Shown here: one piece after another, positions 14,815 through 49,119 of the stretch
How positions within the stretch are numbered: the stretch's first letter is position 1
Layout: every line of letters begins with the position of its first letter
Assembly: GCF_001046635.1 (NCBI RefSeq)
Contig: NZ_KQ130457.1
Span: 312,531-376,530, forward strand
Reading direction: 5' to 3'
Source of the DNA: Novosphingobium barchaimii LL02
Lineage (GTDB): Bacteria > Pseudomonadota > Alphaproteobacteria > Sphingomonadales > Sphingomonadaceae
Length of the DNA stretch: 64,000 nt
Notes under the pieces: generated by a model
Told to the model about the DNA's origin: nothing
The model's database searches: none
What the model saw: the letters and a program-made list of their open reading frames with translations, nothing else
Position numbers and translations under genes: made by a program

Positions 14815-16002
14815 TCAGATCGAAGCGACCGGCTCGTCGACGGCCTTTTCAGCACTGGCAACGGCGCTGCGCAGTGCGGCGACCGAACTGTTTTTCCCGC
14901 GTTTTGCCAGGGCCGGGATTACGTACTTGCCCAAAAGTTCGATGGATTTCATCACGGCTTCGTGCGGCAGGTAGCCGAAGTTGAGGTAGCAGAGGAGCTG
15001 ATCGACGCCCACCTCGTCGTACTTGAGGAACTTTTCGATGCATTCGTCCGGCGTGCCGACGATGACCATGTCTTCCTTGTCGAACTGGGTAATATCGAAA
15101 TCACCGCGCGCCTGCTTGTCCAGCAAGGGGAAGGCGGCGTTCTGCTGTTCCGGGCTGAGATGGCCGAACTCCCACTTGAGGTGGAACTCGGCCAGACCCT
15201 TGTACCACCACCACATCGACTCCCAGAGCTTGTTCTTCTCGAAATCGTCGCGCGATTCGGCGCAATGCACCAGCGTGTAGATGCCGACCTTGTCCGTCAC
15301 GATGCTGGTGAGGGGGGTCGCGCGCGTTTGCGCCTGCCGGTAGGCGTCGATCATCGGTTTGAGCTTGCTGAGGGGTTGCATGATGCTGAAGCACAACAAT
15401 CCGCAGCCGTTCTCGCCCGCCATCACCGCGCTCGATTCCGACCCGGCCGCCATCCAGGCTGGCGGATGCGGATCCTGCCATGGCTTGGGAGTGACCATAC
15501 GCTTGGGAAAGTCGAGGAACTCGGAATGTTCTTCGTAGTACTCCGCTTCCCACATTCCGACGACGGTGCGTGCGGCTGCAAGCATCTTTTCCTTGCTGCG
15601 GGCGATGTCGACCCCGAATGCGAGTTGTTCCATGGGCGTGGAACGGCCAAGTCCCCACACGGCCCGTCCGCCCGAAAGCAGGTCGACCGTCGCCACTTTT
15701 TCGGCGACGCGCGCGGGATGCACGAACTCGTGCGGCATCAGGGACACACCGAACCCGAGCTTGATGGTCTTGGTGATCTGCGAAAGCGCGCCCAGGACCA
15801 CTTCATTGCTCGGCATGTGCGAGCGATTTTCGCGGAAATGATGCTCCACGCACCATACCGTGTCGAAGCCCAGTTCGTCGGCAAGGACGATCTGCTCGAT
15901 GTTCTCCTTGTAGACGCGGCGTTCTTCCATCCGCTGGCCCCACGGATGCGCCCCGTGCCAGGGTTGCGGCACGTCGAACTCGTACAAGAGCCCAAGATCC
16001 AT
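14815..16002 (-). CDS. Luciferase-like (LLM) flavin- or F420-dependent monooxygenase
   Basis: This 395-residue TIM-barrel protein belongs to the bacterial luciferase-like superfamily. It shows the N-terminal EFDVPQPW region, VWCVEHHFRE, the typical ATVDLLSGGRAVWGLGRS and the substrate/cofactor segment HPPAWMAAGSES. Members use FMNH2 and O2 for hydroxylation or Baeyer-Villiger-type cleavage, or use F420H2 for reduction. The sequence looks closer to FMNH2-using two-component monooxygenases, and a flavin-reductase domain is encoded at 22296; FO/F420 genes at 41954-44993 make a deazaflavin cofactor possible. It heads a minus-strand run with the SDR and esterase. Confidence 0.87.
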   Translation of the reverse strand: MDLGLLYEFDVPQPWHGAHPWGQRMEERRVYKENIEQIVLADELGFDTVWCVEHHFRENRSHMPSNEVVLGALSQITKTIKLGFGVSLMPHEFVHPARVAEKVATVDLLSGGRAVWGLGRSTPMEQLAFGVDIARSKEKMLAAARTVVGMWEAEYYEEHSEFLDFPKRMVTPKPWQDPHPPAWMAAGSESSAVMAGENGCGLLCFSIMQPLSKLKPMIDAYRQAQTRATPLTSIVTDKVGIYTLVHCAESRDDFEKNKLWESMWWWYKGLAEFHLKWEFGHLSPEQQNAAFPLLDKQARGDFDITQFDKEDMVIVGTPDECIEKFLKYDEVGVDQLLCYLNFGYLPHEAVMKSIELLGKYVIPALAKRGKNSSVAALRSAVASAEKAVDEPVASI

Positions 16003-32730: not shown

Positions 32731-32824
32731 CGTTGCCCTGTTCCATCTGTTGCGAATGAGTAGTTGTCGACCCGGGACGGGAAGGGCGCGAAAAGAGTGA
32801 TCCTCGGCCCTTCCCGTAGTGTCC

Positions 32825-34552
32825 TCAGGGCTGAAGACGAACGACCGTGACCGAATGCGGCGGCAGGTGGAGCATCAGCTTGCCGTTGCTGGCACTGGCA
32901 CTGAACGGCTTGGGTGCAACGGCTGCAGGTTTGCTGTACGTGTTGACGGAGTTGAACGAGGGCGCTGTCAGAACCTCGCCGTCGGCACGGTTTGCGGTGA
33001 TGCCTGCGACGCTTGCGTTCACGTCGGCGGCGGCGTTGGGATCGAGATTGACGAGCGAGAGCCAAACCTGCCCGTCCTTGCCACGCGCGGCCAGCGCATC
33101 GACCTTGGGTAGGGTGATCTTGTCGAACTTGTATTCGCCTGCGCCGAAGGTGACGGGAAGATACGTGGCATCCTGGAACGGCACGTACATCTTATAGACG
33201 TGGTATGTCGGCGTCAGGAGCATCTTGCTGCCGTCTGTCATGATCATCGACTGCAGCACGTTGACCATCTGCGCGATGTTGGTCATACGCACGCGATCGG
33301 CATGACGGGCGAAAATGTTGATGTTCATGGCGGCGGCAATACCGTCGCGCAGGGAGTTCTGTTGTTCCAAGAACATAGGTTCGGTGCCCTCTGTGGGCTT
33401 CAGCCATACGCCCCATTCATCGACGACCAGCGCGATTGCCTTGTTCGGGTCATATTTGTCCATGATTTCAGAGTGCTTGGTGATCGTCCGGTCCATCAGC
33501 TGGGTTTGCATCAGGACCGTCGCATATTCCTTTTCGCCAAAGTTTGTAGCGGGTTCGGCGAAGGGCAGCGATCCCCACGTGTACTGGTGCAGCGATATGC
33601 CATCGATGTCCCAATAGATTGGACTGCGTGTCTTCCAGGCCTTCATGATGACTTCGGTGTAGGATGGGTCGGCGCTGTTCGGGCCAGCGGCGATCCGCCG
33701 CATGCCGTTGGGATTGCGGGGCAGGCCGTCCATCGGCTTGCCCGTCATCAGATCCTTGGCAATCTTCGCGAAGTCGATCGGAGGCGCCGCCTGTTCCGGG
33801 TTCTGGTTGTGGACGAAGTGAGCGAACGTCTTCATTTTCGTGACGTATTCGTCCGGGGTGAGCGGGCCGCCGCAACCCCACATCTCGTTGCCCAGGCCCA
33901 GATACTTGATTCGGTAGGGCTCCTTGTGCCCGTTGAGGGCGCGTTCGCGCGCTGCAGAGGCAGGCGCTACCGAAGTCATGTATCCCAGCCAGTCACCGGC
34001 TTCCTGGACGGTGCCCGAGCCGACGTTCACAGAGAGATAGGCTTCCGAACCGATCTGCCGCGCGAAATCCATGAATTCGTCGGTCCCGAAGGTATTGGGT
34101 TCGACCGCGTTCGCCCAGTTGGTGTTCACCGTCGTGACGCGCTTTGCGGCTGGGCCGACCCCGTCGCGCCAGTGATATTCGTCTGCGAAGCAACCCCCGG
34201 GCCAGCGCACGACGGGCACCTTGATCGCGCGCAGCGCATCGACAACGTCAGTGCGGATGCCCCGCACGTTGGGAATCTTTGAATCTGGGCCGACCCATAC
34301 ACCCCCATAGACACCGCGTCCGAGATGTTCTGCGAACTGGCCGAAGATATCCCGATTGATGACCGGTCCGGGCCGGTCGGCTTGGATGGTGAGTGGGCCA
34401 GGATTCGCTGTCGCAGCCGATGTTGCAATTGGACCGGAAGCCGGCGCCGCAGACTGCGCGAGCGCTGGAACTGACGCAATCAGCGCAACGCAACCCGTAA
34501 ACTTGAGGAAACCAGCGGCACGCCCCGTTCGTATGTTCGGCATCGAAAACAT
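32825..34552 (-). CDS. Exported GH51 alpha-L-arabinofuranosidase
   Basis: This 575-residue enzyme removes arabinose side chains from arabinoxylan or arabinan. It has a signal peptide (hydrophobic 14-32, ALAQ). The (beta/alpha)8 barrel shows FGQFAEHLGRGVYGG, RWPGGCFAD, the acid/base Glu223 in GNEMWGCG and the nucleophile Glu379 in VVDEWGVW, and a C-terminal beta domain ends the protein. ATG 34552 has GAGG 5 nt upstream; an internal ATG at 34543 is possible. It lies 94 nt upstream of the GH3 gene, likely one operon, and is divergent from the TetR gene. Confidence 0.94.
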   Translation of the reverse strand: MFSMPNIRTGRAAGFLKFTGCVALIASVPALAQSAAPASGPIATSAATANPGPLTIQADRPGPVINRDIFGQFAEHLGRGVYGGVWVGPDSKIPNVRGIRTDVVDALRAIKVPVVRWPGGCFADEYHWRDGVGPAAKRVTTVNTNWANAVEPNTFGTDEFMDFARQIGSEAYLSVNVGSGTVQEAGDWLGYMTSVAPASAARERALNGHKEPYRIKYLGLGNEMWGCGGPLTPDEYVTKMKTFAHFVHNQNPEQAAPPIDFAKIAKDLMTGKPMDGLPRNPNGMRRIAAGPNSADPSYTEVIMKAWKTRSPIYWDIDGISLHQYTWGSLPFAEPATNFGEKEYATVLMQTQLMDRTITKHSEIMDKYDPNKAIALVVDEWGVWLKPTEGTEPMFLEQQNSLRDGIAAAMNINIFARHADRVRMTNIAQMVNVLQSMIMTDGSKMLLTPTYHVYKMYVPFQDATYLPVTFGAGEYKFDKITLPKVDALAARGKDGQVWLSLVNLDPNAAADVNASVAGITANRADGEVLTAPSFNSVNTYSKPAAVAPKPFSASASNGKLMLHLPPHSVTVVRLQP

Positions 34553-34637
34553 CTCTCCCTCGCAACCGGCCTCATGCATCGATCAGCGAACCGTATTGCT
34601 TTGATTCAAGCGTATCTCATTCCTAAAAAGTGTTCAA

Positions 34638-34666
34638 TTGACATAAATATGTCGTGTGAATAATTT
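34638..34666 (+). promoter_or_regulatory. Sigma70-type promoter with internal operator for the TetR gene
   Basis: TTGACA (34638-34643), a 17-nt spacer and TAATTT (34661-34666) form a near-consensus promoter reading toward the TetR gene at 34769. The palindrome GACAT-AAAT-ATGTC (34640-34653) overlaps the -35 and spacer, as expected of an autorepressor site that could also shut the divergent GH51 promoter. Confidence 0.65.
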
Positions 34667-34768
34667 TCAACGAATGGGTTCAGGCGTGGGGCATGGTCGG
34701 AACATGCTGCTATGCGGCCACATGCGAGGCTGAAAGTGCCTTGGTGTTCGCCCGAATGGAGTGTTTCG

Positions 34769-35488
34769 ATGATGCGCCGAACCGTGGAAGCACCGTACTC
34801 GAGGGGGGAGGCGACACGCGCACGCATCCTTGACGTCGCTGTCGATCTGTTCGGCACCAAGGGCTTCGACCGCGTGTCCACCAGGGAGATCGCCAGTGGC
34901 GCTGAAGTGCCGCAGGCCTCGCTACGTTATTACTTCGAAACCAAGCAGGGACTTTATGTCGCTTGCCTCGAATATATTCAGGCGCGCATTTACCAGCAAA
35001 TGGAGCCTGCGCTGGAACGTGCCGAGCACTTGCTTGCAGACCGGACGACCTCGATAACCCAGTTGATCGACAGCTTCTGTTCGCTGCAGGACGCGATGGT
35101 CGATGCCATGATCGGCGCGGACGACAGCGGCACAGCGGCGTTGCTACTGGTACGCCACGATCTGCCTTCCGAAGGAGGCGCGGGCGCGCTTTCCGGCGAT
35201 GAGTCGGACGTGCGACGCATGGCCTCCTGTTTCGCAGGCATGTTAATGCGGATCAGCGCAGATCGGCTGGACCAACAGTCGGCCTCTCGCGTCGCCGGCC
35301 TGATCAACGGGCAAATTACTAACGTCTACCTCCGCAGAAATCGGCTGCTCGAGGAGGGCTGGGACCTCACGACCAAGCGGGTGCTGTGGATCAAAGGCAT
35401 GATCAGGATGCACACCATGGCCATATTGCAGGCTCACGGGGGACAAACGGAATTGTCGGTGCCTCCGCCGGCCTCGCTGGGAAACTAG
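34769..35488 (+). CDS. TetR-family regulator (CecR-like)
   Basis: This 239-residue TetR repressor has its helix-turn-helix at about 36-57 (VSTREIASGAEVPQASLRYYFETKQGL) and a C-terminal domain resembling CecR/DUF1956 proteins. ATG 34769 has GGAG 7 nt upstream. It is divergent from the GH51-GH3 genes and convergent with the esterase gene, whose stop codon shares the bases CTAG with its own. It probably controls the hemicellulose block; the ligand is unknown. Confidence 0.85.
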   Translation: MMRRTVEAPYSRGEATRARILDVAVDLFGTKGFDRVSTREIASGAEVPQASLRYYFETKQGLYVACLEYIQARIYQQMEPALERAEHLLADRTTSITQLIDSFCSLQDAMVDAMIGADDSGTAALLLVRHDLPSEGGAGALSGDESDVRRMASCFAGMLMRISADRLDQQSASRVAGLINGQITNVYLRRNRLLEEGWDLTTKRVLWIKGMIRMHTMAILQAHGGQTELSVPPPASLGN

Positions 35489-36747
35489 TGCGCGATCGGT
35501 TCCGGGTCGGCGCTGACGCCGTTGCGTCTCAGGAATTTCAGGGTAGCTTGACGCACGAACTGGTTTCCGATGCTGCCGCTCATCTGGTCGAAGCTGTGCT
35601 CGCCGAAGGGGTAGGCGATCATCTCGATATCCCCGCCCGCCGCCCTGGCCCTGGCGACGAAGTCGAACGCAATGGGTGCAGGAAGCAGATGGTCGGCTAG
35701 GCCGGGCAGTATGAGCGTTGGTGGTGTGCGATCGCCGATATGCGTTCCCGACGAGACTTCGGCATAGCGGTTGGGATAACGGGCGGGAGTTCCACCGGTA
35801 TAGCGGACGGTCATCTGGCGACCGAAGGGGCCTGCCACTGGGTCCGGGTTGTTATACATCCGTACCGCATCGAGAACGGGATAAGGGGCAACGACGGCGC
35901 GGATGCGTGGTAGCTGGCCTGGGCACGATGGCCGAAGCGAACCAGCCGTGATCCGGTAGGCGACGTTAAGGACGAGATTTCCACCGGCCGACTCGCCCAG
36001 AAGCGCCAGATGTCCGGTATCGCCTCCCAGGCGACTGGCGTTCGCCGTCACCCAGTTGAGAGCACAGCCCACCTGGGGTTCAGCAACATCCCATGTCGGT
36101 CGCCCTTGGGACGACAGCGTATACTGCACCGAGATGACGAGGTATCCGTGATCTGCGTACCAGCGCATATCCGGCTGCTTGTCATGTTGGGTGCCGCCAC
36201 CCCAACCGCCACCATGCACGTAGACAAGGACTGGCGCCCTTGATTTTCCAGGCCCGGCTGGGGGTTGATAGATCGCAAGCTTGAGGGGACGTCCTCGATC
36301 GCTGGCATACTGTACGGATACAGGCAGCGCACTGGCATGCGACACCGAGCCAAGCCAGAGCGTCCGGGCCAGGTCGATGTTCACCCCGTGCGCCCGGGCG
36401 GCGGCGATCTGCTGCGCTTCGACTATCACCGTCCCGATCGCAGCGATTGCGGCAAGCATCGACATGAATACCGGCACTGCGGCGCGAAGTCGGCGCCAGC
36501 GCAGGAAGTAGAACGTCGATGCCGCGAGCGAGAGGATGATGATCCATGATCCGAATGCAGAGATCAGAATCGGACCCAGCGATCCCAGCACCGGGAGCGC
36601 GGGCAGGAAGCACCCGGCCACCGCCAACGTAAGCACAACGATCAGCGTATAGCCTATGAACAGGAAGATTCGCTTAATCCACACTGGCATCTTCCCTAGT
36701 AGCGTCTGGCCCTTGCGCTCTACGGGCGAGATCGATTGAGCCGTCAT
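35485..36747 (-). CDS. Membrane-anchored alpha/beta-hydrolase (esterase, HSL/BD-FAE-like)
   Basis: This 420-residue protein has three predicted N-terminal membrane segments (about 27-45, 50-80, 90-112) followed by an esterase domain: HGGGW (178-182), Ser253 in GESAGG, an aspartate in GLADHLLP and His in GEHSFDQ. The catalytic domain probably faces the periplasm. The likely role is removal of acetyl or acyl groups from plant polysaccharide fragments or glycosides. Its ATG overlaps the TGA of the SGNH gene by one base (TGATG), indicating coupled translation. Confidence 0.87.
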   Translation of the reverse strand: MTAQSISPVERKGQTLLGKMPVWIKRIFLFIGYTLIVVLTLAVAGCFLPALPVLGSLGPILISAFGSWIIILSLAASTFYFLRWRRLRAAVPVFMSMLAAIAAIGTVIVEAQQIAAARAHGVNIDLARTLWLGSVSHASALPVSVQYASDRGRPLKLAIYQPPAGPGKSRAPVLVYVHGGGWGGGTQHDKQPDMRWYADHGYLVISVQYTLSSQGRPTWDVAEPQVGCALNWVTANASRLGGDTGHLALLGESAGGNLVLNVAYRITAGSLRPSCPGQLPRIRAVVAPYPVLDAVRMYNNPDPVAGPFGRQMTVRYTGGTPARYPNRYAEVSSGTHIGDRTPPTLILPGLADHLLPAPIAFDFVARARAAGGDIEMIAYPFGEHSFDQMSGSIGNQFVRQATLKFLRRNGVSADPEPIAH

Positions 36748-37655
36748 CACCTGTTGGAAGCTGCCACGATCACCGACCGGGCTAGCGGAGCCATGGCAGC
36801 GTATCCAGTCCGATTGGGATGAACTCCGTCATTGCCGAGATCGGTCCGCAGGCGTCCGTCAGCATCTTTCAGGACACTGTAGTAATCGAGAAACTTCGCT
36901 TTGCGCGACAAAGCAAGTGCCTTTAGACGTTGGTTGAGCCGGACCACTCTTGGCCCCGGCTTCAATTGGGGTTGCCAGGACCTTTCGGAAATCGGCAGGA
37001 TCGAGGCGATCACGACATTTATCTTATGAACCTGAGCGAGGTCGAGCATCGCAACGAAGTTGTCGATGATGGCGTCGTCGGAAGTTGGCCCGAGGTCCTG
37101 CAGGATGTCGTTCGTACCCGCCATGATATGGACAGTGCCTGGCCGCAGGCGGATTACGTCGGCTTGGAAGCGCAGCAGTATCTGGGCGCTGGTCTGCCCA
37201 CTGATACCACGGTCGAGCACCTTGGCGCTGAACAGCGAAGGGTCGCCGTAAATCCAGTTATCGGTGATCGAATCGCCTAGAAACACGACGTCTGGGGCAT
37301 CCTTGCCGCGCTGTTCGGCATTTGCCGCTCGATAGCGGCAGAGCCCGGCCCAGTCGATCTTCTGACGCTGCTTCTCCTTTTCGGAGACCTGCGCGATCAG
37401 TTTCGCCATTTCCGGGTCCTGCATCAAGGTCGCCGGATCGATTCGGCCGCCCGGCTTTAGTCCCAGTTCGCGCATACGGGGTATCAGAGGAGAATCCGGC
37501 ATCTGCGCCGCCGCGCACTGGGTGTCGGCGGAAGACGCCGCCGTTTCGGTTTGCCCGGACGTCGCCCCCGCCGCGAATAAACCCGCGCACACAAGTGCGG
37601 CAAGCCGTGACAGCCGCAATGCCAGGCAATTCAAAGCATCGGTATTTGTCGTCAT
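36747..37655 (-). CDS. Exported SGNH/GDSL-family esterase
   Basis: This 302-residue SGNH hydrolase has an N-terminal signal segment (16-33). Block I is VVFLGDSITDNW with Ser129, block II glycine is in RGISGQTS, block III asparagine in MAGTNDI, and block V Asp/His in DGVHPN. Between the signal and the catalytic domain is a helical spacer of about 60 residues. It resembles acetyl-esterases of the hemicellulose and rhamnogalacturonan type. ATG 37655 has GGGGGAG 8 nt upstream, 25 nt after the GH3 stop, so it belongs to that operon. Confidence 0.9.
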   Translation of the reverse strand: MTTNTDALNCLALRLSRLAALVCAGLFAAGATSGQTETAASSADTQCAAAQMPDSPLIPRMRELGLKPGGRIDPATLMQDPEMAKLIAQVSEKEKQRQKIDWAGLCRYRAANAEQRGKDAPDVVFLGDSITDNWIYGDPSLFSAKVLDRGISGQTSAQILLRFQADVIRLRPGTVHIMAGTNDILQDLGPTSDDAIIDNFVAMLDLAQVHKINVVIASILPISERSWQPQLKPGPRVVRLNQRLKALALSRKAKFLDYYSVLKDADGRLRTDLGNDGVHPNRTGYAAMAPLARSVIVAASNR

Positions 37656-37680
37656 GGCAACTTCTCCCCCGAAGTATCGC

Positions 37681-40044
37681 TCAGTTCGCCGGACGCGGAG
37701 CGCCACCTACATTGAAGGTTCCGTGCGCATCCGCTGTTGAACTGTTCCCCACCCAGACGTCGAACGTGCCGGGATCGATGACCCATGTCCGCTCGATCGA
37801 GTTCCAGTACCGGACATTGGATTCGTCGAGCGTAAACGTGACCTGGCGACTTTCGCCGGCGGCCAGGGATACTCGCTGGAAGCCCTGTAGCAACCGGATT
37901 GGACGCGACTGTCTGCCAGCGCGCTGGTGGATGTAAAGCTGTACGACCTCATCACCTGGCCGGGCGCCGGTATTGGTGACAGTCGTTGATACCGCAATCC
38001 GCCCGCCGGGCATCAGTTCGGTCTTGTCCATGGTTGGCGGTGCGATGGTGAACGTCGTGTAGCTGAGGCCAAAGCCAAAGGGGAACATCGCGGTGGACGG
38101 CGCGTCCCAGTACCGTTTGTCGGCTGTGTCCGGATTGTGCGTCAGATTATGCGCGTAGTAGATTGGCACCTGGCCGACGCTGCGGGGCCAGGTGATCGGC
38201 GTCTTGCCACCAGGATTGACGTCGCCGAACAGCGCGCGGGCAATCGCGGTCCCGCCTCGCATGCCGCCGTGCCACCCCTCGAGCACCGCCGGAACCTTGT
38301 CATACACGCCCGTCAGGTCAAGCGGACGACCGTTGATAAGCACCACCACGACCTTTTTGCCTGTGGCGAGTACTGCGTCGAGCAGCTGGCGCTGGTTCCC
38401 GGGCAACGCAAGGTCCGCCTGTGACCCCTGTTCGGAACTCATGCTCAGCGATTCGCCCAGTGTCATGACGACGACGTCAGATCGCTTGGCGAGGTCGACC
38501 GCTTTCTGGATCTCGGCAGCCGCCTGCTGCTGGCTCCAACGGGCAGGGGGCTTGATCAGTCCGGCGAGCGGCCCCTCGTTAAGGCGAAACAACTGTACGC
38601 CCGGGGTGGTTTCCACTGTCGCGGTGCCCTGAAGGCGCTCGCTCACGCCCTTAAAGACGGAGACGGTGTTCGCGGCCTGCTCGGGATAGGCAAGCGATAT
38701 CGTCATGTCCTTGGGCGAGTCAGCCATGGGGCCGATTACAGCGACATGCTTCAGCGCTCCGGGATCGAGCGGCAGTGCCTTGCCGTCGTTCTTGAGCAGC
38801 ACCAGGCTTCGCTCGGCTGCGGCCTGCGCCGCCGCCGGATGGGCGGGGTCGTCCAGTGCCTGCTTTGCTGCGGTCTCGTCAACGTACGGGTTCTCGAACA
38901 GGCCCATGCGGAACTTGGCGATGAGAACACGCCGGACTGCCTCGTCAAGCCGTGCCATCGGAACCTTGCCTGCCTTCACCGAATCCACCAGCGTCGCAAA
39001 GGCATTCGGTGCCATCGACATTTCCATGTCGACGCCTGCCGTGATCGCGCGGATCGCCGCATCGGCCTTGTCGGCTGCGAAACCCTGCTTGACCAGATTA
39101 TGAACGGCGCTGGCATCGGTAACCACCCAACCCTTGAACCCCAGCTCACCGCGCAGCACGTCCTTGAGCAGATATTTGTTCGCCGATGCCGGAACGTCGT
39201 TGAAATCCATGTAGGCGCTCATGACATTGCCGGCGCCGGCATCCACCGCCGCCTTGAAAGGCGGCAGATAGACATTGTGAAGCTCGCTTTCCGACATATA
39301 GGCGGAATCGTAGTCTCGCCCGCCAACCGATGCACCGTAACCGACAAAATGCTTGGGGCCGGCAATGATGTGGCCGGGCGCGCCGATGTGGTCTCCCTGG
39401 AAACCCTTTACCTGCGCGCGGGCAATCGCGGCTCCCAGGTACGGGTCTTCTCCGGCGCCTTCGACGATGCGGCCCCAGCGCGGATCGCGCGCGATGTCTA
39501 TCATCGGCGCGAAGGTCCAGTGGATACCCTGCGCGCGCGCCTCCGCCGCCGCGATTGCCTGATCATGCTCCACCCCGGCAGGATCGAAGCTCGCTGCGTT
39601 GGCCAAGGGCACCGGGAACATGGTGTGAAGGCCCCATACTACGTCATAGCCTAGCAGCAGCGGGATCTTGAGTCGCGTCTTCTCCACGGCCAGACGCTGA
39701 TACCGGTTGGCGATGGCCGGATCGTGGACGAACAGGACAGCCCCGATTTGTCCCTTGCCGATCACGTCGTCCAGGGGTGTGATTGGCGGCATTCCCGGTA
39801 TTGCCGGTGCGCCTGCAGGGAACAGCGACGCGATGTCGAAGCGCTGGCTGATCTGGCCAACCTTTTCTTCGACAGTCATTTTGGCAAGAAGCCGGTTGGC
39901 GCGCGATAGCGCTTCCTTTTCCGACATTCCGGCGGCTGATGCAGAAGCCTGTGCAGTGGGCGCGGAAGGTTCAGATAGCGCCGGCTGCGTAAAGGCCAGA
40001 ACCAGACCAAGGGCCGGAATTCCCTTAAGAATCGACTTACGCAT
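37681..40044 (-). CDS. Exported GH3 beta-glucosidase (BglX-like)
   Basis: This 787-residue periplasmic beta-glucosidase has a signal peptide (cleavage near PALSE, 22-25). It shows the GH3 N-domain (MTVEEKVGQ, DPRWGR, AGPKHFVGYG), nucleophile Asp310 in WVVTDASA, a second domain with SSEQGSQADLALPG carrying the probable acid/base, and a C-terminal FN3-like domain. It is the first gene of the minus-strand run with the SGNH esterase and membrane esterase. The palindromes at 40135-40168 lie 90 nt upstream. It probably cleaves cello- or xyloglucan-derived oligosaccharides. Confidence 0.93.
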   Translation of the reverse strand: MRKSILKGIPALGLVLAFTQPALSEPSAPTAQASASAAGMSEKEALSRANRLLAKMTVEEKVGQISQRFDIASLFPAGAPAIPGMPPITPLDDVIGKGQIGAVLFVHDPAIANRYQRLAVEKTRLKIPLLLGYDVVWGLHTMFPVPLANAASFDPAGVEHDQAIAAAEARAQGIHWTFAPMIDIARDPRWGRIVEGAGEDPYLGAAIARAQVKGFQGDHIGAPGHIIAGPKHFVGYGASVGGRDYDSAYMSESELHNVYLPPFKAAVDAGAGNVMSAYMDFNDVPASANKYLLKDVLRGELGFKGWVVTDASAVHNLVKQGFAADKADAAIRAITAGVDMEMSMAPNAFATLVDSVKAGKVPMARLDEAVRRVLIAKFRMGLFENPYVDETAAKQALDDPAHPAAAQAAAERSLVLLKNDGKALPLDPGALKHVAVIGPMADSPKDMTISLAYPEQAANTVSVFKGVSERLQGTATVETTPGVQLFRLNEGPLAGLIKPPARWSQQQAAAEIQKAVDLAKRSDVVVMTLGESLSMSSEQGSQADLALPGNQRQLLDAVLATGKKVVVVLINGRPLDLTGVYDKVPAVLEGWHGGMRGGTAIARALFGDVNPGGKTPITWPRSVGQVPIYYAHNLTHNPDTADKRYWDAPSTAMFPFGFGLSYTTFTIAPPTMDKTELMPGGRIAVSTTVTNTGARPGDEVVQLYIHQRAGRQSRPIRLLQGFQRVSLAAGESRQVTFTLDESNVRYWNSIERTWVIDPGTFDVWVGNSSTADAHGTFNVGGAPRPAN

Positions 40045-40895: not shown

Positions 40896-41939
40896 TTATT
40901 CCTCCAGCAGTTCCATGCTGCCGAGATCATCGACCGCCGTGCCTAGGCGATGGACGAAAAGGTTCGTGATTGCGGGTTCCACCTTCTGGGTGATCGACCA
41001 AAGGTAATAACCGTAGATCAGTGCCACGCGATACCGGCTCCACGCTGCTTCGGCCGTGATTTCCGGCCCGCCCATCTCTGCCAGCCGAATGCGGTAGAAA
41101 TCGAGCAAGGCCCCTTCATGCATGCGCCGTTCCTCCGGAGAGAAGATCGCGGCAATGTGGTAGGCGATGTCGAGCGCCCACTCGCCTCGCTGGAAAATCT
41201 GCCAGTCGACGATGCCGATACCGCCTGCATCGCGATAGATATTGCCGGCATGTGCATCGCCGTGCAGAAGCAACGCGGGCTGTTCATGACCTTGCCGCGC
41301 CAGCGCGGCCACGGCGCGCTCCAGCCGGCCTGCATCCTTGATCGCATGGGACAGGGCATCGCCGCGGGGACCGTCCAGCAGCAGCTGCAGTTTTTCCGTG
41401 GGCATGATCGGGCGGGAACCGATCTGGTCGAGGAAGCGGGGAACCCAACCGAAGCTATCAGCGCGCGGGTCGTTCCAACTGAAAGCATGAAGCGCGGCCA
41501 GTTGCGCGACCGAGCGCATTGCTTCGTCGAGCGTAACCGGAGAGAGGGCCGAAAGGAATACGCCGCCCGCCGCTTTGATATCGTGCATGACGATTACGCC
41601 TCTTTCGGCATCTGCCGAAAAGCCAGCATGAATGCAGGCGGGCGTCTGAACCGGAAGATATTCCGCGCCGTCACGATAGAAACGAGTTTCCACCAGCGAA
41701 CTCGACGCCATAGCTCCAGTGTCGGTAAGCACCCCCTTAATGCAGATTGCGCGCGGCATGGTCTCGTCACCGCCTGACGTCTCAAGCGCGAGCCGTACTT
41801 TCGTAGCCTGCGTGGCGAGCAGCTCCTTGACCTCGACCGCTACTACCCGCGCGTCGGGCCACCGCTGCCGAAGCATTGCGGTGAGCCATTCGGGACTGAC
41901 GACGACATCGAGGGTGGAAGGGGCGGGGTCAAAAGTCAT
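40896..41939 (-). CDS. APH-type phosphotransferase family protein
   Basis: This 347-residue kinase-fold protein is of the APH/ACAD10-like family. The catalytic loop is LLHGDAHAGNIY (Asp228, Asn233) and the metal aspartate is Asp245 in IVDWQ; the N-lobe is shorter and weakly conserved. Its ATG lies 14 nt after the F420 reductase stop, so it is the last gene of the FbiC-NpdG run. A second such kinase is coupled to the acyl-CoA ligase at 20181. Phosphorylation of a hydroxyacyl-CoA or hydroxyacid is a guess based on context. Confidence 0.84.
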   Translation of the reverse strand: MTFDPAPSTLDVVVSPEWLTAMLRQRWPDARVVAVEVKELLATQATKVRLALETSGGDETMPRAICIKGVLTDTGAMASSSLVETRFYRDGAEYLPVQTPACIHAGFSADAERGVIVMHDIKAAGGVFLSALSPVTLDEAMRSVAQLAALHAFSWNDPRADSFGWVPRFLDQIGSRPIMPTEKLQLLLDGPRGDALSHAIKDAGRLERAVAALARQGHEQPALLLHGDAHAGNIYRDAGGIGIVDWQIFQRGEWALDIAYHIAAIFSPEERRMHEGALLDFYRIRLAEMGGPEITAEAAWSRYRVALIYGYYLWSITQKVEPAITNLFVHRLGTAVDDLGSMELLEE

Positions 41940-41953
41940 CGGGTGTGCTCCCG

Positions 41954-42613
41954 TCAGGCCGCCGGTTCGGTTAGCGTTCCGGTGATCTGGATTCCCGCTC
42001 CGTCAGCAGCGTAGGTCTTGTTCAGGAAGATCAGGATCGAAGTCAGCGCCTCGGCGGCGGCCGAATTCACCAGTGCCCCTGCATGCAGACCGCGCAGGCC
42101 GCAGTCCGCCGCTAATGCAACCACCTTGGACCGCGCCGCCTTGTCGTCGCCGAACACGAGCACATCGCAAGCGACATCCTCCTCCTTGATCAGCTTGTGG
42201 GCGGCGACGTTGTGGAAGGCTGACACCACAGTCACGCCTTCGCCAAGCAACTGCTGGGCACGCGCCGCAGCAGAGCCTTCGACGGGCAGTTGGACGCGCA
42301 TTACACGGGGAGGGACCAGCGGGACGGTAGTATCGACCACGATCTTGCCCTGGACATGAGGCTGGATGGCAGCCAGCGTGCCTTCCTGCGCGGAGAAGGG
42401 CACCGAAACGATGATGAGGTCCGCCGCACTCGCAGCATCCTCGTTGTTCATTCCAGTGAGCCCGAAACCCAACCGCTCTGCGGCCTCTGCCGCGCTTTCC
42501 GCCGAGCGCGATCCAACGATGACCGTACGTCCAGCCTTCGCTAGACGACGGGCGATGGCAGACCCCAGATCGCCCGTGCCGCCGATCACTGCGATTGTCC
42601 CAATGGCCGTCAT
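41954..42613 (-). CDS. npdG: NADPH:coenzyme F420 oxidoreductase
   Basis: This 219-residue Rossmann protein matches F420-dependent NADP reductases (Fno/NpdG), which move hydride between NADPH and F420. Seen are the loop VIGGTGDLGSA (9-19), the NADPH 2'-phosphate site GSRS after strand 2, SVPFSAQEGTL, the family motif VVDTTVPLVPP, then VQLPVEGSAA, VVSAFHNVAA and the C-terminal GAGIQITG. ATG 42613 has AGGAG 9 nt upstream and lies 4 nt after the fbiC stop. The adjacent FO synthase gene strengthens the call. It would provide reduced F420 (or perhaps FO) for a reductase. Confidence 0.9.
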   Translation of the reverse strand: MTAIGTIAVIGGTGDLGSAIARRLAKAGRTVIVGSRSAESAAEAAERLGFGLTGMNNEDAASAADLIIVSVPFSAQEGTLAAIQPHVQGKIVVDTTVPLVPPRVMRVQLPVEGSAAARAQQLLGEGVTVVSAFHNVAAHKLIKEEDVACDVLVFGDDKAARSKVVALAADCGLRGLHAGALVNSAAAEALTSILIFLNKTYAADGAGIQITGTLTEPAA

Positions 42614-42617
42614 CAAA

Positions 42618-44993
42618 TTAAACTCCTGCTGTTTCGAGACACGGTGTCGGAACCGCGCCGTACGTCGTGGTGCGTTGGCGGGCAGGGCGCCCGGCGCTGC
42701 GCGCGAGATTGTGCATCTGTTCGACCCCGAAGACCTGCCCGTTTCGGCCGCCGGCGGCGCGCGTGATGGATTCGTCCATCAGGACGCCGCCCAGATCGTT
42801 GACGCCGGCCGCCAGTGCGGCCTGCACCCCTGCGGCGCCGAGCTTCACCCAGCTTGCCTGGATGTTGGAAATCTGGCCATGAAGGGCGAGCCGCGCTACC
42901 GCGTGCATCAGCAGCGCCTCTCGAAAGCTGGGGCCTGAACGTGACCGGCCCTTGCGCCACATCGGCGCTTCCATGTGGACGAACGGGAGCGGCACGAACT
43001 CGGTGAAGCCTCCGGTTTCGGCTTGGAGATCGCGAATTAACAGCAGGTGGCGCGCCCAGTGCTTGTAGCTGTCGACATGGCCGAACATGATCGTCGCGGT
43101 GGAACGTAGCCCGACGCCATGGGCGGCGCGCATGACGTCAATCCACTCCGATGCGGTGATCTTGTCCGGACATATGACGGCCCGCACTTCCGGATCGAGA
43201 ATTTCGGCAGCAGTGCCGGGCAGGGTCGAAAGGCCTGCATCCTTGAGCCAGGTCAGATATTCCGGCAGCGACTGCCCCAGCGTCTGTGCGCCATGCGTGA
43301 TCTCGAGAGGGGAGAACGCGTGGATGTGGATGTCGGGCGCGGCTGCTCGCACCGCTTCGAGCACGCGATGATAGGTGTTTCCGTCGAAGTTGGGATGGAT
43401 GCCGCCTTGCAGGCAGACTTCGGTTGCGCCGCGTTCCCATGCTTCGGCTGCGCGGCGCCCAATCTCTTCGCCGTCGAGATTGTAGGCGGGGCCCCGCAGG
43501 TCCTTAGTTCCACCCTTGGAAAATGCGCAGAAAGTGCAGCGATAAAGGCAGATGTTGGTGTAGTTGATATTGCGATTGACGACATAGGTCACGGCGTCGC
43601 CGGATACCTCACGACGCAGCGCATCCGCGGCATGAGTGATGCGCGCGACATCTGGCCCATCTGCAAGGAAAAGCGTCTCGATATCAACGACATCCAATCT
43701 CTCACCGGCGCTTGCCCGCTCGATTATCGCGTCGATCCTGGCAGATGACAGGGTCGCCCCCCCGTGCAGGACTTGCGGCGGATTGATCTCTCCACCAGCC
43801 CGCCAGGGCTCGACTACCGGAAGTCCACGCGCATCGATCGCGCGCAGTACAGGTGTCACGAGCGAAGGATCAAGCCAGCGGTCCGGTGCGCGAGCGTATG
43901 CGGGGCCAATGGCCAACCGCTCGGTCAGAACGCGTCCGCTTTGCGATGTCGCCTGCGCCAGAGCGTCGAGATGGGGCCAAGGCGCTTCCGGGTTGACGTG
44001 GTCCGGTGTGACGGGTGACACACCGCCCCAGTCGTTGACGCCCGCCGCCAGAAGTTTGGCGAGATCTGCGGGCTGAAGGTTTGGCGGCGCCTGAATCACC
44101 ATGTCCGGCCCCAGAACCAACCGGGCCGCGGCGATGGTCCAGAGGTGTTCGTCCAGTGGCGGCTCTGGCGCCTTGGCCATGCGTGTAGCCGGCTTGGCCT
44201 TGAAATTCTGGATTATGACTTCCTGGATATGCCCATGGCGCGCGTTGAGATCGCGGATGGCCACCAGGGCCTCGATCCGCTCCTCCCGCGTTTCGCCTAT
44301 GCCGATCAGCACGCCAGTGGTGAACGCGACGGCCGCCCGACCCGCTTGCTCGATGGCTTCGAGCCGGCGCGCCGGGTCCTTGTCAGGCGATCCGAAATGG
44401 GGACCGCCCCGTTCGGAAAGGCGCGACGAGGATGTCTCCAGCATCAGACCCATCGAGACCGCTACCGGGCGTAATGCCGCATAGTCGGCACTTGTCATCA
44501 GGCCGGGATTGAGGTGGGGAAGCAGCCCCGTCTCTGCGAGAACGGCAGCTGCCATTTCGCGCAGATAGGATAGTGTCGTCGCATGGCCCATCGAGGCAAG
44601 TGCCTCGCGCGCTGCCGGATGCCGCGCTTCGGGCTGATCGCCCAGAGTAAAAAGGGCCTCGCGACAACCCGCAGCCACACCGGCGCGGGCGATCGCCAGT
44701 ACTTCTTCGCGGTCTAGGTAAGCCTTGCCGACCGCGCGAGGTGTGCTCGCGAATGTGCAGTAATGGCAAACGTCCCGACACAGGCGAGTGAGCGGGATGA
44801 AGACTTTGCGCGAATAAGTGACCACGGGCCCATGCCGGTCGAGCGTCATTCGCTCGGCGACGTTCATCATGTCGACAAGGGGCACGCCCTCCAGCTTCGC
44901 CCAGATCGCGTCGGCTGGATCGTCCAGTGAAATTGCGGGCAGGGTGACTGCCTTGTCGACCGGCTTGCCGCCCGGAGGTCTCAAATGAATCAT
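42618..44993 (-). CDS. fbiC: FO synthase, fused CofG/CofH (FbiC)
   Basis: This radical-SAM enzyme makes FO (8-hydroxy-5-deazaflavin), the chromophore of F420, from tyrosine and the ribityl-aminouracil intermediate of riboflavin synthesis. The 791-residue chain contains both halves: CofG with Cys72-x3-Cys76-x2-Cys79 (CRDVCHYC) and CofH with Cys482-x3-Cys486-x2-Cys489 (CLYRCTFC). Other marks are EALFTLGDQPE, GVNDWGGVSPVT, QGGIHP and ANDLGG-like GVNDLGGVLMDES. The fused form is the actinobacterial arrangement. ATG 44993 was chosen; a GTG at 45035 would add 14 residues. No other F420 genes (cofC, cofD, cofE) are in the window. Confidence 0.95.
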   Translation of the reverse strand: MIHLRPPGGKPVDKAVTLPAISLDDPADAIWAKLEGVPLVDMMNVAERMTLDRHGPVVTYSRKVFIPLTRLCRDVCHYCTFASTPRAVGKAYLDREEVLAIARAGVAAGCREALFTLGDQPEARHPAAREALASMGHATTLSYLREMAAAVLAETGLLPHLNPGLMTSADYAALRPVAVSMGLMLETSSSRLSERGGPHFGSPDKDPARRLEAIEQAGRAAVAFTTGVLIGIGETREERIEALVAIRDLNARHGHIQEVIIQNFKAKPATRMAKAPEPPLDEHLWTIAAARLVLGPDMVIQAPPNLQPADLAKLLAAGVNDWGGVSPVTPDHVNPEAPWPHLDALAQATSQSGRVLTERLAIGPAYARAPDRWLDPSLVTPVLRAIDARGLPVVEPWRAGGEINPPQVLHGGATLSSARIDAIIERASAGERLDVVDIETLFLADGPDVARITHAADALRREVSGDAVTYVVNRNINYTNICLYRCTFCAFSKGGTKDLRGPAYNLDGEEIGRRAAEAWERGATEVCLQGGIHPNFDGNTYHRVLEAVRAAAPDIHIHAFSPLEITHGAQTLGQSLPEYLTWLKDAGLSTLPGTAAEILDPEVRAVICPDKITASEWIDVMRAAHGVGLRSTATIMFGHVDSYKHWARHLLLIRDLQAETGGFTEFVPLPFVHMEAPMWRKGRSRSGPSFREALLMHAVARLALHGQISNIQASWVKLGAAGVQAALAAGVNDLGGVLMDESITRAAGGRNGQVFGVEQMHNLARSAGRPARQRTTTYGAVPTPCLETAGV

Positions 44994-45134
44994 CTCTGCC
45001 GTCCGCCTTTCAGACTGCTGAAGGGTCAAGATCACGATACCGCCGGCCTTCCCCGTGGCGCGGCGACAACCCCGGACTGGCGCCGCTCAGCGAACATATT
45101 CATTTGCGAAACGATTTGCCAATGATCCTCGAAT

Positions 45135-45162
45135 GAAACAGCCATGCATCAATTGCTGTTTC
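45135..45162. promoter_or_regulatory. Inverted repeat upstream of fbiC
   Basis: GAAACAGC (45135-45142) and GCTGTTTC (45155-45162) are perfect 8-nt arms separated by 12 nt. The site lies in the gap between the CoA-transferase stop (45213) and the fbiC start, about 140 nt upstream of the chosen ATG. It could be an operator of an internal promoter; no T tract marks it as a terminator. Confidence 0.4.
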
Positions 45163-45212
45163 GCCCGGGCGCTTATGTCGATCGGTCCCTGCTGCCACTG
45201 GCGGCCGCCGTG

Positions 45213-46421
45213 CTACTGTATCGTGCGACGCGATTTCATGTCGGCGATTTTATCGGCGGAATACCCCACTTCTGTCAAAAGAGCGTCGGTATGCTCGCCC
45301 ATGCCGGGAGACGGCTTGGGATCGATAGGTTTCGCATGTCCATCGAAAGTGGCAGGGCCGGATACCAGCTGCACCGGGGCACCGTTCACATCCATGGTGA
45401 AAAGCATCTCGTTGGCGTGGGCCTGAGGGTCGACCGTCACATCGAAGATCGTGCGGATCAGCTCCCAAGGCGCGTCCCAGGCGTAGAAGATCGGTTCCCA
45501 TTCAGCCCAGTCACGTGCGGAAATGCGATCGCCGATCAAGGCGGCGAGTTCGTCGCAGTTGGTCTGTCGTGCGCTGTTATCGGCGAACCGCGCATCGTCA
45601 ATCCACTCATCAGCGCCTAGCAACTTGCACAGACTGGGCCAGTGAGGGCGGGGGTCGAGAAGCATCAGCTGGATGATGCGATCATCCTTCGTCCGATATC
45701 CCGACATAAGGGGGAACCGGTTCGAGGATTCGCCATGAATCTTGTATCCGGGGACTTGCGAATACGTAATGTCTGACGAGAGGATCCAGGTTGCGGTCTG
45801 GAGGAGCGAGGTTTCGACGACCGAGCCCTCGCCGGTTACGGAACGCTTATAAAGTCCACCTGCGATCGCGAAAGCGAGAGAAGTTGCACTGGAATGATCG
45901 CCGAACGCGGCTCGCGGCGGGGTCGGGGCATTGCCTGGCAGCGTGAACGCGTGTGACAGTCCACCGCGGGCCCAGAAGGCCGATGCATCGAAACCGGCCT
46001 TGTCTGCTTCCGCTCCGCGAAATCCGTAGCCGTTGCCCCGAGCATAGATGATCCGGGGGTTGCGCGCTTGCACGTCTTCTACGTCAAGTCGCAGCGCGCG
46101 AAGCGCCTTGGGCCGCAGGCTGGTGATAAAAACGTCGGCGGTTTCAATCAACTTGAGCAGTGCCTCGCGGCCTTCATCGCTCTTTAGATCGAGTGCGATG
46201 CTTTTCTTGCCGCGGTTGTTCTGCTCCATCGCTAGATTGGTAGCGCCGACTTCACGACCATCGCCGACTTTAAGGGTGCGATAGGGATCACCCAGCCCAG
46301 GCGTTTCGATCTTGATGACCTCCGCCCCCTGATCGGCGAGGAGCACACTTGCGCCCGGGACGAAAACGAACTGCGCAAGTTCAATAATACGTACGCCCGA
46401 AAAAACTCCCGTGGCCGTCAT
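45213..46421 (-). CDS. CaiB/BaiF-family (class III) CoA transferase
   Basis: This 402-residue formyl-CoA-transferase-like enzyme moves CoA between carboxylic acids. The N-terminal Rossmann half carries VFSGVRIIELAQFVFVPGAS and DQGAEVIKIETPGLGD; the catalytic aspartate is Asp145 in GFDASAFWARGG. ATG 46421 is preceded by GAGGAGAG. It is the promoter-proximal gene of the run leading to fbiC, npdG and the kinase, though a 219-nt gap follows it. It is divergent from the TonB-dependent receptor, suggesting that uptake and CoA activation of one substrate are co-regulated. Confidence 0.9.
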   Translation of the reverse strand: MTATGVFSGVRIIELAQFVFVPGASVLLADQGAEVIKIETPGLGDPYRTLKVGDGREVGATNLAMEQNNRGKKSIALDLKSDEGREALLKLIETADVFITSLRPKALRALRLDVEDVQARNPRIIYARGNGYGFRGAEADKAGFDASAFWARGGLSHAFTLPGNAPTPPRAAFGDHSSATSLAFAIAGGLYKRSVTGEGSVVETSLLQTATWILSSDITYSQVPGYKIHGESSNRFPLMSGYRTKDDRIIQLMLLDPRPHWPSLCKLLGADEWIDDARFADNSARQTNCDELAALIGDRISARDWAEWEPIFYAWDAPWELIRTIFDVTVDPQAHANEMLFTMDVNGAPVQLVSGPATFDGHAKPIDPKPSPGMGEHTDALLTEVGYSADKIADMKSRRTIQ

Positions 46422-46863
46422 CCCGAATTCTCTCCTCGTGTTCCGCCAGCATACCCGAACGTGCCATGTTCGCCCTGAAAGGGCTACGAAATCGCACATT
46501 CATGCCTTCCGTTGGAAAATGTCCTCTGGCGGGTTTTTATTCATAATCAGAGCGCTAGCTGCCACTTCATGCTAAATCAAATATCAAAAATGCATCCGTT
46601 GAGACCAAAAAGATATGAAGATGTTTTGCCAAACCTGCGCATATCGTCCACGCGATGGCTGTCATCGTTCCATCTTGGATAAACCAAAAAGGAGGCGCGC
46701 GGTCGCCGCGATCACCGGCACGAGCCCATCTTTCTGTATTGCAATGCGCTGCTATCATTCGAATCGTATTGCATCTCTCGCAAATAAAAAATACGCTTCC
46801 GTTCGTAATGGTTTGAATGAACCGAAAACGACCCGAGATTTGTCGGGCAGGGGGAGAAAATCC
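46422..46863. other. Divergent intergenic region, no gene seen
   Basis: This 442-nt region separates the CoA transferase (minus) from the TonB receptor (plus) and must hold both promoters. It is clearly poorer in GC than its surroundings, with A-rich stretches near 46570-46620 and 46780-46800. ATTGCA occurs at 46738 and 46768 without the paired half seen in the operators elsewhere. The reading frame of the receptor stays open upstream to 46615, but a GTG at 46864 with a strong ribosome-binding site is the better start. Confidence 0.6.
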
Positions 46864-49119
46864 GTGAGCTATTCAAGCGCGATCCGCGCTGTATTCGCTA
46901 CGGGAGTGGCAGTGCTTGCGCTGGCTCCGGACGCCGGCATGGCGCAGCAAGCCGTCGACGACAAAGCGGAAGCGGGCGGTAACGAGATAATTGTAACAGC
47001 GCAACGTCGAGCAGAGTTGCTCGAGCGAGTGCCGGTCGCCATCGTAGCGCTCACTTCCAACACGCTGGAAAAGGCGGGCGTGCAGCGAATGGACGATCTC
47101 GGGCAGGTTGCTACCGGAGTGCAGATCAATCGCGGTGGATCCTTTACACAGCCCGCAATTCGCGGGATCAGCACACTTACCCTAGGCTACGGCTTCGAGA
47201 ACAACGTCGCTGTCTATGTGGATGGCTTCTACCAGCCAGACATGGTCACCATCAATGGCGACCTCGCCAACCTGGCTAGCGTTCAAGTCCTCAAAGGACC
47301 GCAGGGGACGCTGTATGGGCGGAACGCCACAGGTGGTGCGATCGTTATGGAAACGATGACGCCTTCAAAGGTTTTCACCGCCAACGGCCAGATTTCATAC
47401 GGCAGGTTCGATGATCGGCGGGCGCAAGCCTACGTCTCAGGTCCACTCAACGACCAGATTTCGTTCGGCGTCGGCGCCTATTACCGCAGCAGCGACGGCT
47501 ACATCCGCGATATCGGCGCAGATCCTTTATCGTCCGCAGACGATACCGATGCAGCGCCCCTCAAAAACGTATCGATACGGGCCAAGGTATTGTGGGAAGC
47601 CACGGACGATCTTAAAGTGACCTTCGGATACAACCATGGCTTCGTTGAAGACGCGCGCGGCATTGTCTATCGCATAGACAAGTTCGCTTCGCCAGCTCTA
47701 CCCATGCCGCCGGCCCGCGCCGATCGCCGTGACACTGCTTCTCTTTCCATCCCTGCGGACTCCTCTGCGAAAGCCGACGAGGTTACTGGAAAGATCGTCC
47801 TCGAAACCGGGATCGGCACTTTGTCGTCGTACACCGGGTTCGCAAAACGACACAGTAAATCGGTTTTTGATTTCGATGGTAGCAAGCCTTTTATATCACA
47901 ATCTAAATCAACGAATATCCGGCAAAGAACGTTTCAGCAAACCCTCGATTATTCAATCAACGCGATCCAAGGTTTGGATCTCATTTTGGGCGCTTTTTAC
48001 TATAACGACAAACTAAATGTTAATGACGCTCGGACATATTCTGGTGGTGTCGAAGAGTCTAACCGCCTACGTAGCCAGTACGATCTGTTGACGTCGAAGT
48101 CTTACGCGTTTTATCTCGATGCCACATACCTCATAGCGGACAAGCTGTTCCTGACAGGAGGCGTTCGCTACAGCCACGAAAAACGCCGTATTGCATATTT
48201 TGAATTGCCTGGGATCGTTACCGCAATTGTCGCGCCTGCTGACAAATCCGCTACTTTCAGTTCCGCAACTCCTCGAGCGGTGTTAAGGTACGAACTAGGT
48301 GCGCGGACCAATATATACGCATCGTTTTCAACCGGGTTTCGTTCCGGTGTATTCAACCCGACCGCCGTACCTTCACCAGCACTGGTCATTCCGATCAAGC
48401 CGGAGAAACTAAAGGCTTACGAGCTGGGATTTAAGACAGCTTCGTCGATTTTTCGTTTCGACACTGCAGCTTATTACTATGACTTCCGCAACTTGCAGGT
48501 CGGCGTCAGTGTCCCCAGTCCTATCACTCCGGGTAGTGTAGTTCAGCTCATCAGCAATGCTAAAAAGGCGGAAGTCTACGGTATCGAAGGGCAGGTCGCG
48601 GTGACGCCGCTGGAAAGTCTCAACATGCGCGCAGGAGCATCTTGGACGCATGCCCGCTACAAAGATTTCAAGAATGCTACTGGCACCGGCCTCAACTCAG
48701 CTACCGGACTTAATGCGACAGGTCAGGTACAGGATTGGTCCGGCAAGCAGATGGCGCGTGCACCTGGCTTCACGGCGAACCTTGGGGCAGACTACTCGAT
48801 CGACTTTGCTGGCGGCCGCCTCTCAATGGCTGCTAACGGCAGTTATACATCTTCGTTCGTTGTCTCGAATCCATCCCTTTACGGTCCGCTTGCGGGCTCT
48901 GCCTTGGCGAACCGCCAGCGCTACCGTCAAAAGGCCTACGCGCTGGTTAATGCCCAGATCAACTGGACTGATCCGAGCGATCATTTCACCTTCGGAATTT
49001 ATGGGGAGAACGTGACAAACACGCGGTATGCGATGACTCTGTCAGGCGGTGTATTCGGAGACTATTCTCAGGGTAATCAGCCAGCCACTTATGGTGCACG
49101 AGCGGGTTTCAAGTTCTGA
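46864..49119 (+). CDS. TonB-dependent outer-membrane receptor
   Basis: This 751-residue ligand-gated outer-membrane transporter starts with GTG, which has GGGGGAG 7 nt upstream. The signal peptide (1-28) ends AGMAQQ; a TonB-box-like EIIVTAQRRAE follows at about 40, then the plug domain (VPVAIVAL, RGISTL, VYVDGFYQPD, VLKGPQGTLYGRNATGGAI), and a 22-strand barrel ending with aromatic Phe (ATYGARAGFKF). Such receptors in sphingomonads import aromatics, steroids or glycosides. Base composition is noticeably lower in GC than neighbouring genes, suggesting separate acquisition. It is divergent from the CoA transferase. Confidence 0.95.
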   Translation: MSYSSAIRAVFATGVAVLALAPDAGMAQQAVDDKAEAGGNEIIVTAQRRAELLERVPVAIVALTSNTLEKAGVQRMDDLGQVATGVQINRGGSFTQPAIRGISTLTLGYGFENNVAVYVDGFYQPDMVTINGDLANLASVQVLKGPQGTLYGRNATGGAIVMETMTPSKVFTANGQISYGRFDDRRAQAYVSGPLNDQISFGVGAYYRSSDGYIRDIGADPLSSADDTDAAPLKNVSIRAKVLWEATDDLKVTFGYNHGFVEDARGIVYRIDKFASPALPMPPARADRRDTASLSIPADSSAKADEVTGKIVLETGIGTLSSYTGFAKRHSKSVFDFDGSKPFISQSKSTNIRQRTFQQTLDYSINAIQGLDLILGAFYYNDKLNVNDARTYSGGVEESNRLRSQYDLLTSKSYAFYLDATYLIADKLFLTGGVRYSHEKRRIAYFELPGIVTAIVAPADKSATFSSATPRAVLRYELGARTNIYASFSTGFRSGVFNPTAVPSPALVIPIKPEKLKAYELGFKTASSIFRFDTAAYYYDFRNLQVGVSVPSPITPGSVVQLISNAKKAEVYGIEGQVAVTPLESLNMRAGASWTHARYKDFKNATGTGLNSATGLNATGQVQDWSGKQMARAPGFTANLGADYSIDFAGGRLSMAANGSYTSSFVVSNPSLYGPLAGSALANRQRYRQKAYALVNAQINWTDPSDHFTFGIYGENVTNTRYAMTLSGGVFGDYSQGNQPATYGARAGFKF

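Follow-up and report, generated by a model that had tools for sequence, protein, structure and literature searches.

An fbiC-npdG gene pair within a catabolic island of Novosphingobium barchaimii LL02

Introduction

Genes for cofactor F420, and traces of the cofactor itself, are known from Alphaproteobacteria, and the excerpted text of a review lists as an open question why Proteobacteria make it and states that F420-dependent enzymes from bacteria other than actinobacteria had not been studied (PMC8498797). For Novosphingobium, F420 biosynthesis is among the cofactor genes listed in the available part of a second paper (PMC13318209). Our literature searches, which covered openly licensed papers, turned up none on what F420 does in sphingomonads; the available portion of a paper on tomatine and Sphingobium (PMC10653915) does not mention F420, deazaflavin, luciferase, CoA transferase or TonB. 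Sphingomonad sequence records are already annotated with fbiC, npdG and cofC-E. This study concerns an fbiC-npdG pair (FO synthase and NADPH-dependent F420 reductase) in a stretch of 64,000 nucleotides from Novosphingobium barchaimii LL02 (assembly GCF_001046635.1, contig NZ_KQ130457.1, positions 312,531 to 376,530), referred to below as the window. The pair likely covers FO synthesis and cofactor reduction for an F420 system and is set within a large sphingomonad island of catabolic genes. Its parts are already known; what is new is a lead on function, which comes from the island setting.

Actinobacterial npd operons for picrate and dinitrophenol, reportedly described by Heiss et al. in 2002, are said to hold npdG together with an F420-dependent hydride transferase. 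They resemble the window in having an NADPH:F420 reductase within a catabolic cluster, whereas in the window no npdI-like or nitroaromatic genes were seen and fbiC is also part of the cluster. On Croceicoccus marinus pCME4A9I and Novosphingobium resinovorum pSA2, as in the window, fbiC is followed by npdG amid catabolic genes for TonB receptors, CaiB, luciferase-like monooxygenases (LLMs) and Rieske proteins, and Croceicoccus likewise has an EcKL-family kinase gene nearby. Unlike the window, pSA2 has cofC beside fbiC, pCME4A9I has cofE-cofD-cofC, and both have, beside fbiC, LLM genes of TIGR03619, a family whose members are annotated as LLM reductases that depend on F420. Genome G177 shares the fbiC-npdG order with the window (FbiC 81% and NpdG 81-82% identical), and the two FbiC proteins are sisters in our tree. 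However, its F420 genes form a single run, fbiC-npdG-cofE-cofD-cofC, closed by a TIGR03619 LLM of 241.7 bits, and it has no EcKL match in the genome at E <= 1e-20. The next nearest FbiC clade is that of the Sphingobium plasmids (TomMM7A and S. herbicidovorans pMSHV), where CoA-transferase and acyl-CoA dehydrogenase genes lie nearby; in contrast to the window, npdG is not beside fbiC and the CoA-transferase is of another subfamily.

Results

What was observed directly is the identity and intactness of the genes, their co-occurrence and the content that the islands share. The order on the minus strand is CaiB (a coenzyme A [CoA] transferase), fbiC, npdG and kinase (Table 1). All four genes named in the initial annotation of this DNA are present, match their families and are free of internal stops, and a chance reading of the gene calls is untenable. 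FbiC scores 1133 bits on the NCBIfam model for bifunctional CofGH (NF006687; cut-off 1018) and also passes the equivalog cut-offs for its two domains, CofG (TIGR03550) and CofH (TIGR03551). It is a fused protein, as had been claimed, with both radical-SAM CxxxCxxC sites (CRDVCHYC at residue 86 and CLYRCTFC at 496). An alignment of 115 non-identical FbiC proteins, taken from fetched loci, has 214 columns conserved in at least 97% of rows, and the window's FbiC keeps 213 of them; the sole deviation is Ala 237, where 113 of the 115 have Pro. The start codon is GTG, with an alternative ATG possible at 44993. NpdG reaches 189.7 bits on TIGR01915 (cut-off 149.8), starts with ATG at 42613 and carries the NADP-binding motifs GGTGDLG and GSRS. 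Its nearest solved structure is T. fusca Fno (5n2i, 137 bits), and 1jax and 1jay are also among the nearest.

CaiB matches the CoA_transf_3 domain over its full length (model positions 2-366 of 366), and its nearest solved structures are those of succinate-hydroxymethylglutarate CoA-transferase (9br6 and 9br7). Its longest open reading frame (ORF) begins at 46499, but 46421, which has a ribosome-binding-like stretch, is more likely to be the true start. The kinase agrees with its earlier designation as APH-type in its Pfam scores and in its catalytic motifs of the HGDxxxGN and DW types (HGDAHAGN at 226 and IVDW at 243). For CaiB and the kinase, the family assignment comes from Pfam alone; neither reaches an NCBIfam equivalog cut-off, so their substrates are not fixed. 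The gap between fbiC and npdG measures 4 nt, the same value as first given, and that between npdG and the kinase 14 nt; these three genes form a tight block in which CaiB, 177 nt upstream of fbiC, is not counted. A promoter scan gave a promoter-like match in the 177-nt gap, but the region total was 2 against 1.7 expected.

The survey for FbiC took in 347 genomes from the family to which Sphingomonas sp. SRS2 belongs. Some match was found in 61; nine weak ones (E above 1e-6) were set aside, leaving FbiC encoded in 52, a few of these matches being fragments at contig ends. CofC, CofD and CofE, which add the F420 tail, occur in 52, 51 and 50 of the 52, respectively, where the CofC search was restricted to FbiC-bearing genomes and CofD and CofE were scored over cut-off across all 347. 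Outside the FbiC set, CofD was found in two genomes and CofE in one. TIGR03619 is over cut-off in 44 genomes, that is, in 43 of the 52 with FbiC and 1 of the 295 without (Fisher 8e-45; kinship is ignored in this and the later Fisher values). The sole FbiC-less genome (G350) carries both CofD and CofE, so an assembly gap may explain its lack of fbiC. In G210, a TIGR03619 LLM (207.7 bits) lies 1.6 kb from fbiC. Based on relatives such as these, TIGR03619 LLM reductases are the likely F420 clients and would be encoded outside the window.

The one LLM found in the window (LLMw) was also considered as a client and rejected. It is below cut-off for both TIGR04020, its best NCBIfam match, and TIGR03619 (87 bits vs 166.9), and its best matches are flavin mononucleotide (FMN) enzymes and bacterial luciferase-like structures. 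Its relatives are in G162 (83%), G178 and G292, plus the FbiC-less G202 (73%). Because of the FMN-type matches and the relative in G202, LLMw was not taken as a client; it is probably FMN-dependent.

Protein searches indicated that positions 2-49 kb of the window are mostly one catabolic island, common to relatives in rearranged order and shared with G162, G210 and, in part, G202. On two contigs of G162 we found LLMw (83%), SDR (81%), NpdG (78%), TonB (74-76%), amidohydrolase and aldehyde dehydrogenase (75%), CaiB (74%), FbiC (73%), P450 (70%), GMC oxidase (69%) and APH kinase (67%), with the TonB receptor relative on the same contig as fbiC-npdG. The comparison with G210 drew on two stretches, 40 and 36 kb long, from a region of about 106 kb. 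Its matches are arabinofuranosidase (79%), SDR and GH3 (75%), Rieske (73%), a partial GH3 (72%), APH kinase (65%), the hydrolase-flavin reductase fusion (60%), EcKL (59%) and CaiB (57%), and the arabinofuranosidase and GH3 genes stand beside fbiC-npdG-cofE-cofD-cofC. The EcKL relatives in G210 and G162 (58% in the latter) are both more than 50 kb from fbiC. G202 carries LLMw, CaiB, Rieske, aldehyde dehydrogenase, amidohydrolase, both kinases and regulators on a single contig; no match to FbiC, CofD or CofE was found in this assembly of unknown completeness. Both G345 and G293 have the genes for CaiB, aldehyde dehydrogenase, EcKL and APH grouped together, away from fbiC.

Since CaiB and EcKL are found in G202 without FbiC and, in G345 and G293, away from fbiC, we read them as island core and not as part of cofactor synthesis. 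G202 suggests that this core does not need F420, which is probably an accessory of the island, often but not always carried along. Relatives of CaiB at 54% identity or more occur in 7 of the 52 FbiC genomes vs 1 of the 74 FbiC-less genomes examined (of 293; Fisher 0.008), and LLMw relatives in 3 of 52 vs 1 of 295 (Fisher 0.011); the single FbiC-less genome is G202 in both counts. Both sets of relatives lean towards FbiC genomes.

The surroundings of fbiC were counted at 28 longer sphingomonad loci, with L066 and L147 excluded as too short. The npdG gene is within 8 kb of fbiC at 24 and directly downstream at 20. Near fbiC are also an F420-type LLM (9 loci), CofC (10), CofD (8), CofE (10), CaiB (8), a TonB receptor (11) and an EcKL kinase (2). 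Tail genes directly follow npdG in G177, SRS2, Croceicoccus and others. The arrangement, which the initial annotation did not recognise, is therefore not unprecedented, as sphingomonads repeatedly have fbiC-npdG next to CaiB, LLM or tail genes. EcKL-family kinase genes were seen near fbiC in G023 (L134, directly upstream), Croceicoccus (L092) and Hirschia (L005).

A contig scan placed Sphingobium sp. 15-1, SRS2, S. fontiphilum and S. quisquiliarum (69-73%) at the top of the best 80 FbiC loci, and a wider search gave the G177 copy (L128, 81%) as the closest. In the FbiC tree (IQ-TREE, quick search, 115 rows, two Rhodococcus copies as outgroup), the window's FbiC lies inside a mainly sphingomonad clade, with an SH-aLRT value of 100 for the pairing with G177 and 98 for the Sphingobium plasmid copies as next. 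A comparison with actinobacterial FbiC had been raised at the outset; the nearest FbiC relatives found are sphingomonad. Recent transfer from Actinobacteria was rejected, as the window's FbiC shares 48-50% identity with Rhodococcus plasmid copies vs 81% with G177; the tree, a quick one whose only two actinobacterial rows stand on long branches, also speaks against it. A succinate-CoA ligase gene at the window's left end suggests a chromosomal location, a hint weakened by the fact that several sphingomonads carry fbiC on plasmids about 1 Mb in size.

FbiC is present twice in G004, G023, G077, G081, G090, G139, G156 and G210, each copy with at least about 730 matched residues; in some cases the two come from different FbiC subclades. 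A beta-proteobacterial fbiC (66%) on a conjugative plasmid of Paraburkholderia sprentiae (L150), accompanied by cofEDC, npdG, LLM and pqq genes, is nested among sphingomonad copies in the tree and is likely a case of transfer.

The catabolic setting claimed earlier was supported by the glycosidases, esterases, P450, Rieske and CoA genes around the block (Table 1), the island hydrolases spanning 30034..40044. The GH3, arabinofuranosidase and esterase genes suggest that the substrate is a plant compound bearing sugar and ester groups. Together with the P450, Rieske and epoxide hydrolase genes, the hydrolases would fit a glycosylated terpenoid or steroid, although no gene decides; steroid-enzyme matches in the window are weak and all below cut-off. 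Between the TonB receptor gene and a sensor kinase gene is a 507-amino acid open frame (49145-50668, minus strand) with no Pfam or NCBIfam match. The sensor (51446-52552, minus strand) is PAS/LOV-like with an HWE/HisKA_2 histidine kinase, and blue-light-activated histidine kinase models are nearest to it, below cut-off.

Table 1. Features of the window, with family assignments and supporting matches
Feature	Coordinates	Strand	Evidence or remark
EcKL/APH-family kinase, 347 aa	40896..41939	-	Pfam EcKL 46.7, APH 46.6 bits
npdG/fno, NADPH-dependent F420 reductase, 219 aa	41954..42613	-	TIGR01915, motifs, structure match
fbiC, fused CofG-CofH FO synthase, 805 aa	42618..45035	-	NF006687, CxxxCxxC sites, conserved columns
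CaiB-type class III CoA-transferase, 402 aa	45213..46421	-	Pfam CoA_transf_3 316 bits
TonB-dependent receptor, divergent from CaiB	46615..49119	+	Pfam TonB_dep_Rec 145 bits
Luciferase-like monooxygenase (LLMw)	14815..16002	-	TIGR04020 (FMN) 107 bits, TIGR03619 (F420) 87 bits
Alpha/beta hydrolase fused to flavin reductase domain	22296-23651	-	Relatives in G210 (60%) and G162 (53%, partial)
GH3	30034-32730	-	Island hydrolase
Arabinofuranosidase with Alpha-L-AF_C	32825-34579	-	Island hydrolase
TetR gene	34712-35488	+	
BD-FAE esterase	35485-36750	-	Island hydrolase
GDSL hydrolase	36747-37706	-	Island hydrolase
GH3/BglX-like	37681-40044	-	Island hydrolase
Rest of island: epoxide hydrolase, amidohydrolase, MDR reductase, aldehyde dehydrogenase, GMC oxidase, MFS, IclR, alpha/beta hydrolases, SDRs, Rieske oxygenase, AMP ligase, APH kinase, LysR, hydrolase-flavin reductase fusion, NMO, AraC, P450	2046..29967		Pfam

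Discussion

We consider it likely that fbiC and npdG serve an F420 system within this catabolic island. Enzymes of the FbiC family form FO from tyrosine and a riboflavin precursor, and the window's FbiC would do the same. CofC, CofD and CofE, presumably encoded elsewhere in the genome, would add the tail to give F420, which NpdG would reduce with NADPH. To judge from relatives, the resulting F420H2 would be used by TIGR03619-type luciferase-like reductases outside the window. Its target may be an intermediate of a glycosylated plant compound, for which the island would supply the other steps. We infer the enzyme activities, the choice of F420 over FO, the client enzyme and the substrate from sequence comparisons.

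Several points weigh against this explanation. The island core of G202 (CaiB 62%, LLMw 73%, aldehyde dehydrogenase 56%) stands without a match to FbiC, CofD or CofE, and no LLMw relative was found in G210. No TIGR03619-type LLM is among the window ORFs scanned, and in 9 of the 52 FbiC genomes no TIGR03619 match reaches the cut-off. Kinship among the genomes also means that the evidence is weaker than the Fisher values suggest.

The initial annotation had taken the proximity of CaiB to suggest that F420H2 reduces a CoA thioester or aromatic. Such a specific link, with F420H2 reducing a CoA thioester or aromatic produced by the adjacent CaiB, draws on CaiB homologues within 8 kb of fbiC at 8 of the 28 loci, compared with the roughly 7% that CaiB density predicts (binomial 5e-4, or 8e-3 once two near-identical pairs are collapsed), and CaiB relatives are commoner in FbiC genomes. 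However, among the matches listed, the homologues at other fbiC loci share only 27-31% identity with the CaiB of the window. Its orthologues in G345, G293 and G210 are away from fbiC, another is in the FbiC-less G202, and the 177-nt gap sets CaiB apart from fbiC. As CaiB belongs to a core that is also present in G202, the proximity argument is not supported, and we think a specific CoA link unlikely.

Another possibility is that FO itself is the working cofactor, the tail genes having been lost or never present and NpdG and the clients using FO. The FO head is the redox part of F420 according to the excerpted review (PMC8498797) and, in agreement with the initial annotation, no cofC, cofD or cofE is among the window ORFs scanned. 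Against this, G281 alone of the 52 FbiC genomes is without both CofD and CofE, and only G212 is otherwise without CofE. Moreover, G162 has fbiC-npdG within its island and all the tail genes, with cofE-cofD-cofC grouped on another contig, which makes the tail genes missing from the window ordinary. Because tail genes are near-universal in the FbiC genomes surveyed, we strongly favour F420, its tail genes being located elsewhere, over FO alone, the other option left by the initial annotation. The end product is thus most likely F420, and the use of FO alone would be quite improbable.

The pair might also be decaying or chance passengers without an island function. The tail genes are not alongside, and the core occurs in G202 without fbiC and npdG; but the open frames, near-perfect conservation and tight coupling, together with the same fbiC-npdG pair in the related islands of G162 and G210, render this quite improbable. 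It is very improbable that the kinase, which stands where the nearest relative (G177) has cofE, phosphorylates FO to FO-5'-phosphate as a tail-less working deazaflavin, bypassing CofC, CofD and CofE; its relatives in G162 and G210 are among catabolic genes far from fbiC, and one of 40% identity is in the FbiC-less G202. That FbiC provides FO as a light-harvesting pigment for DNA photolyase, as in the FO-using photolyases of cyanobacteria and some eukaryotes mentioned in the review excerpt (PMC8498797), is barely credible given the dedicated NADPH:F420 reductase just downstream and the co-occurrence of fbiC with tail genes and F420-type LLMs, though photolyases were not searched for.

Conclusions

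Under the F420 explanation, the presence of fbiC-npdG in sphingomonad catabolic islands, with TIGR03619 tracking FbiC almost genome for genome, offers a handle on F420 use in these bacteria. The TIGR03619 pattern would name the client enzymes, and the island hydrolases suggest glycosylated plant compounds as substrates. If this is true, F420 would be a tool with which root-associated or soil sphingomonads degrade plant defence compounds.

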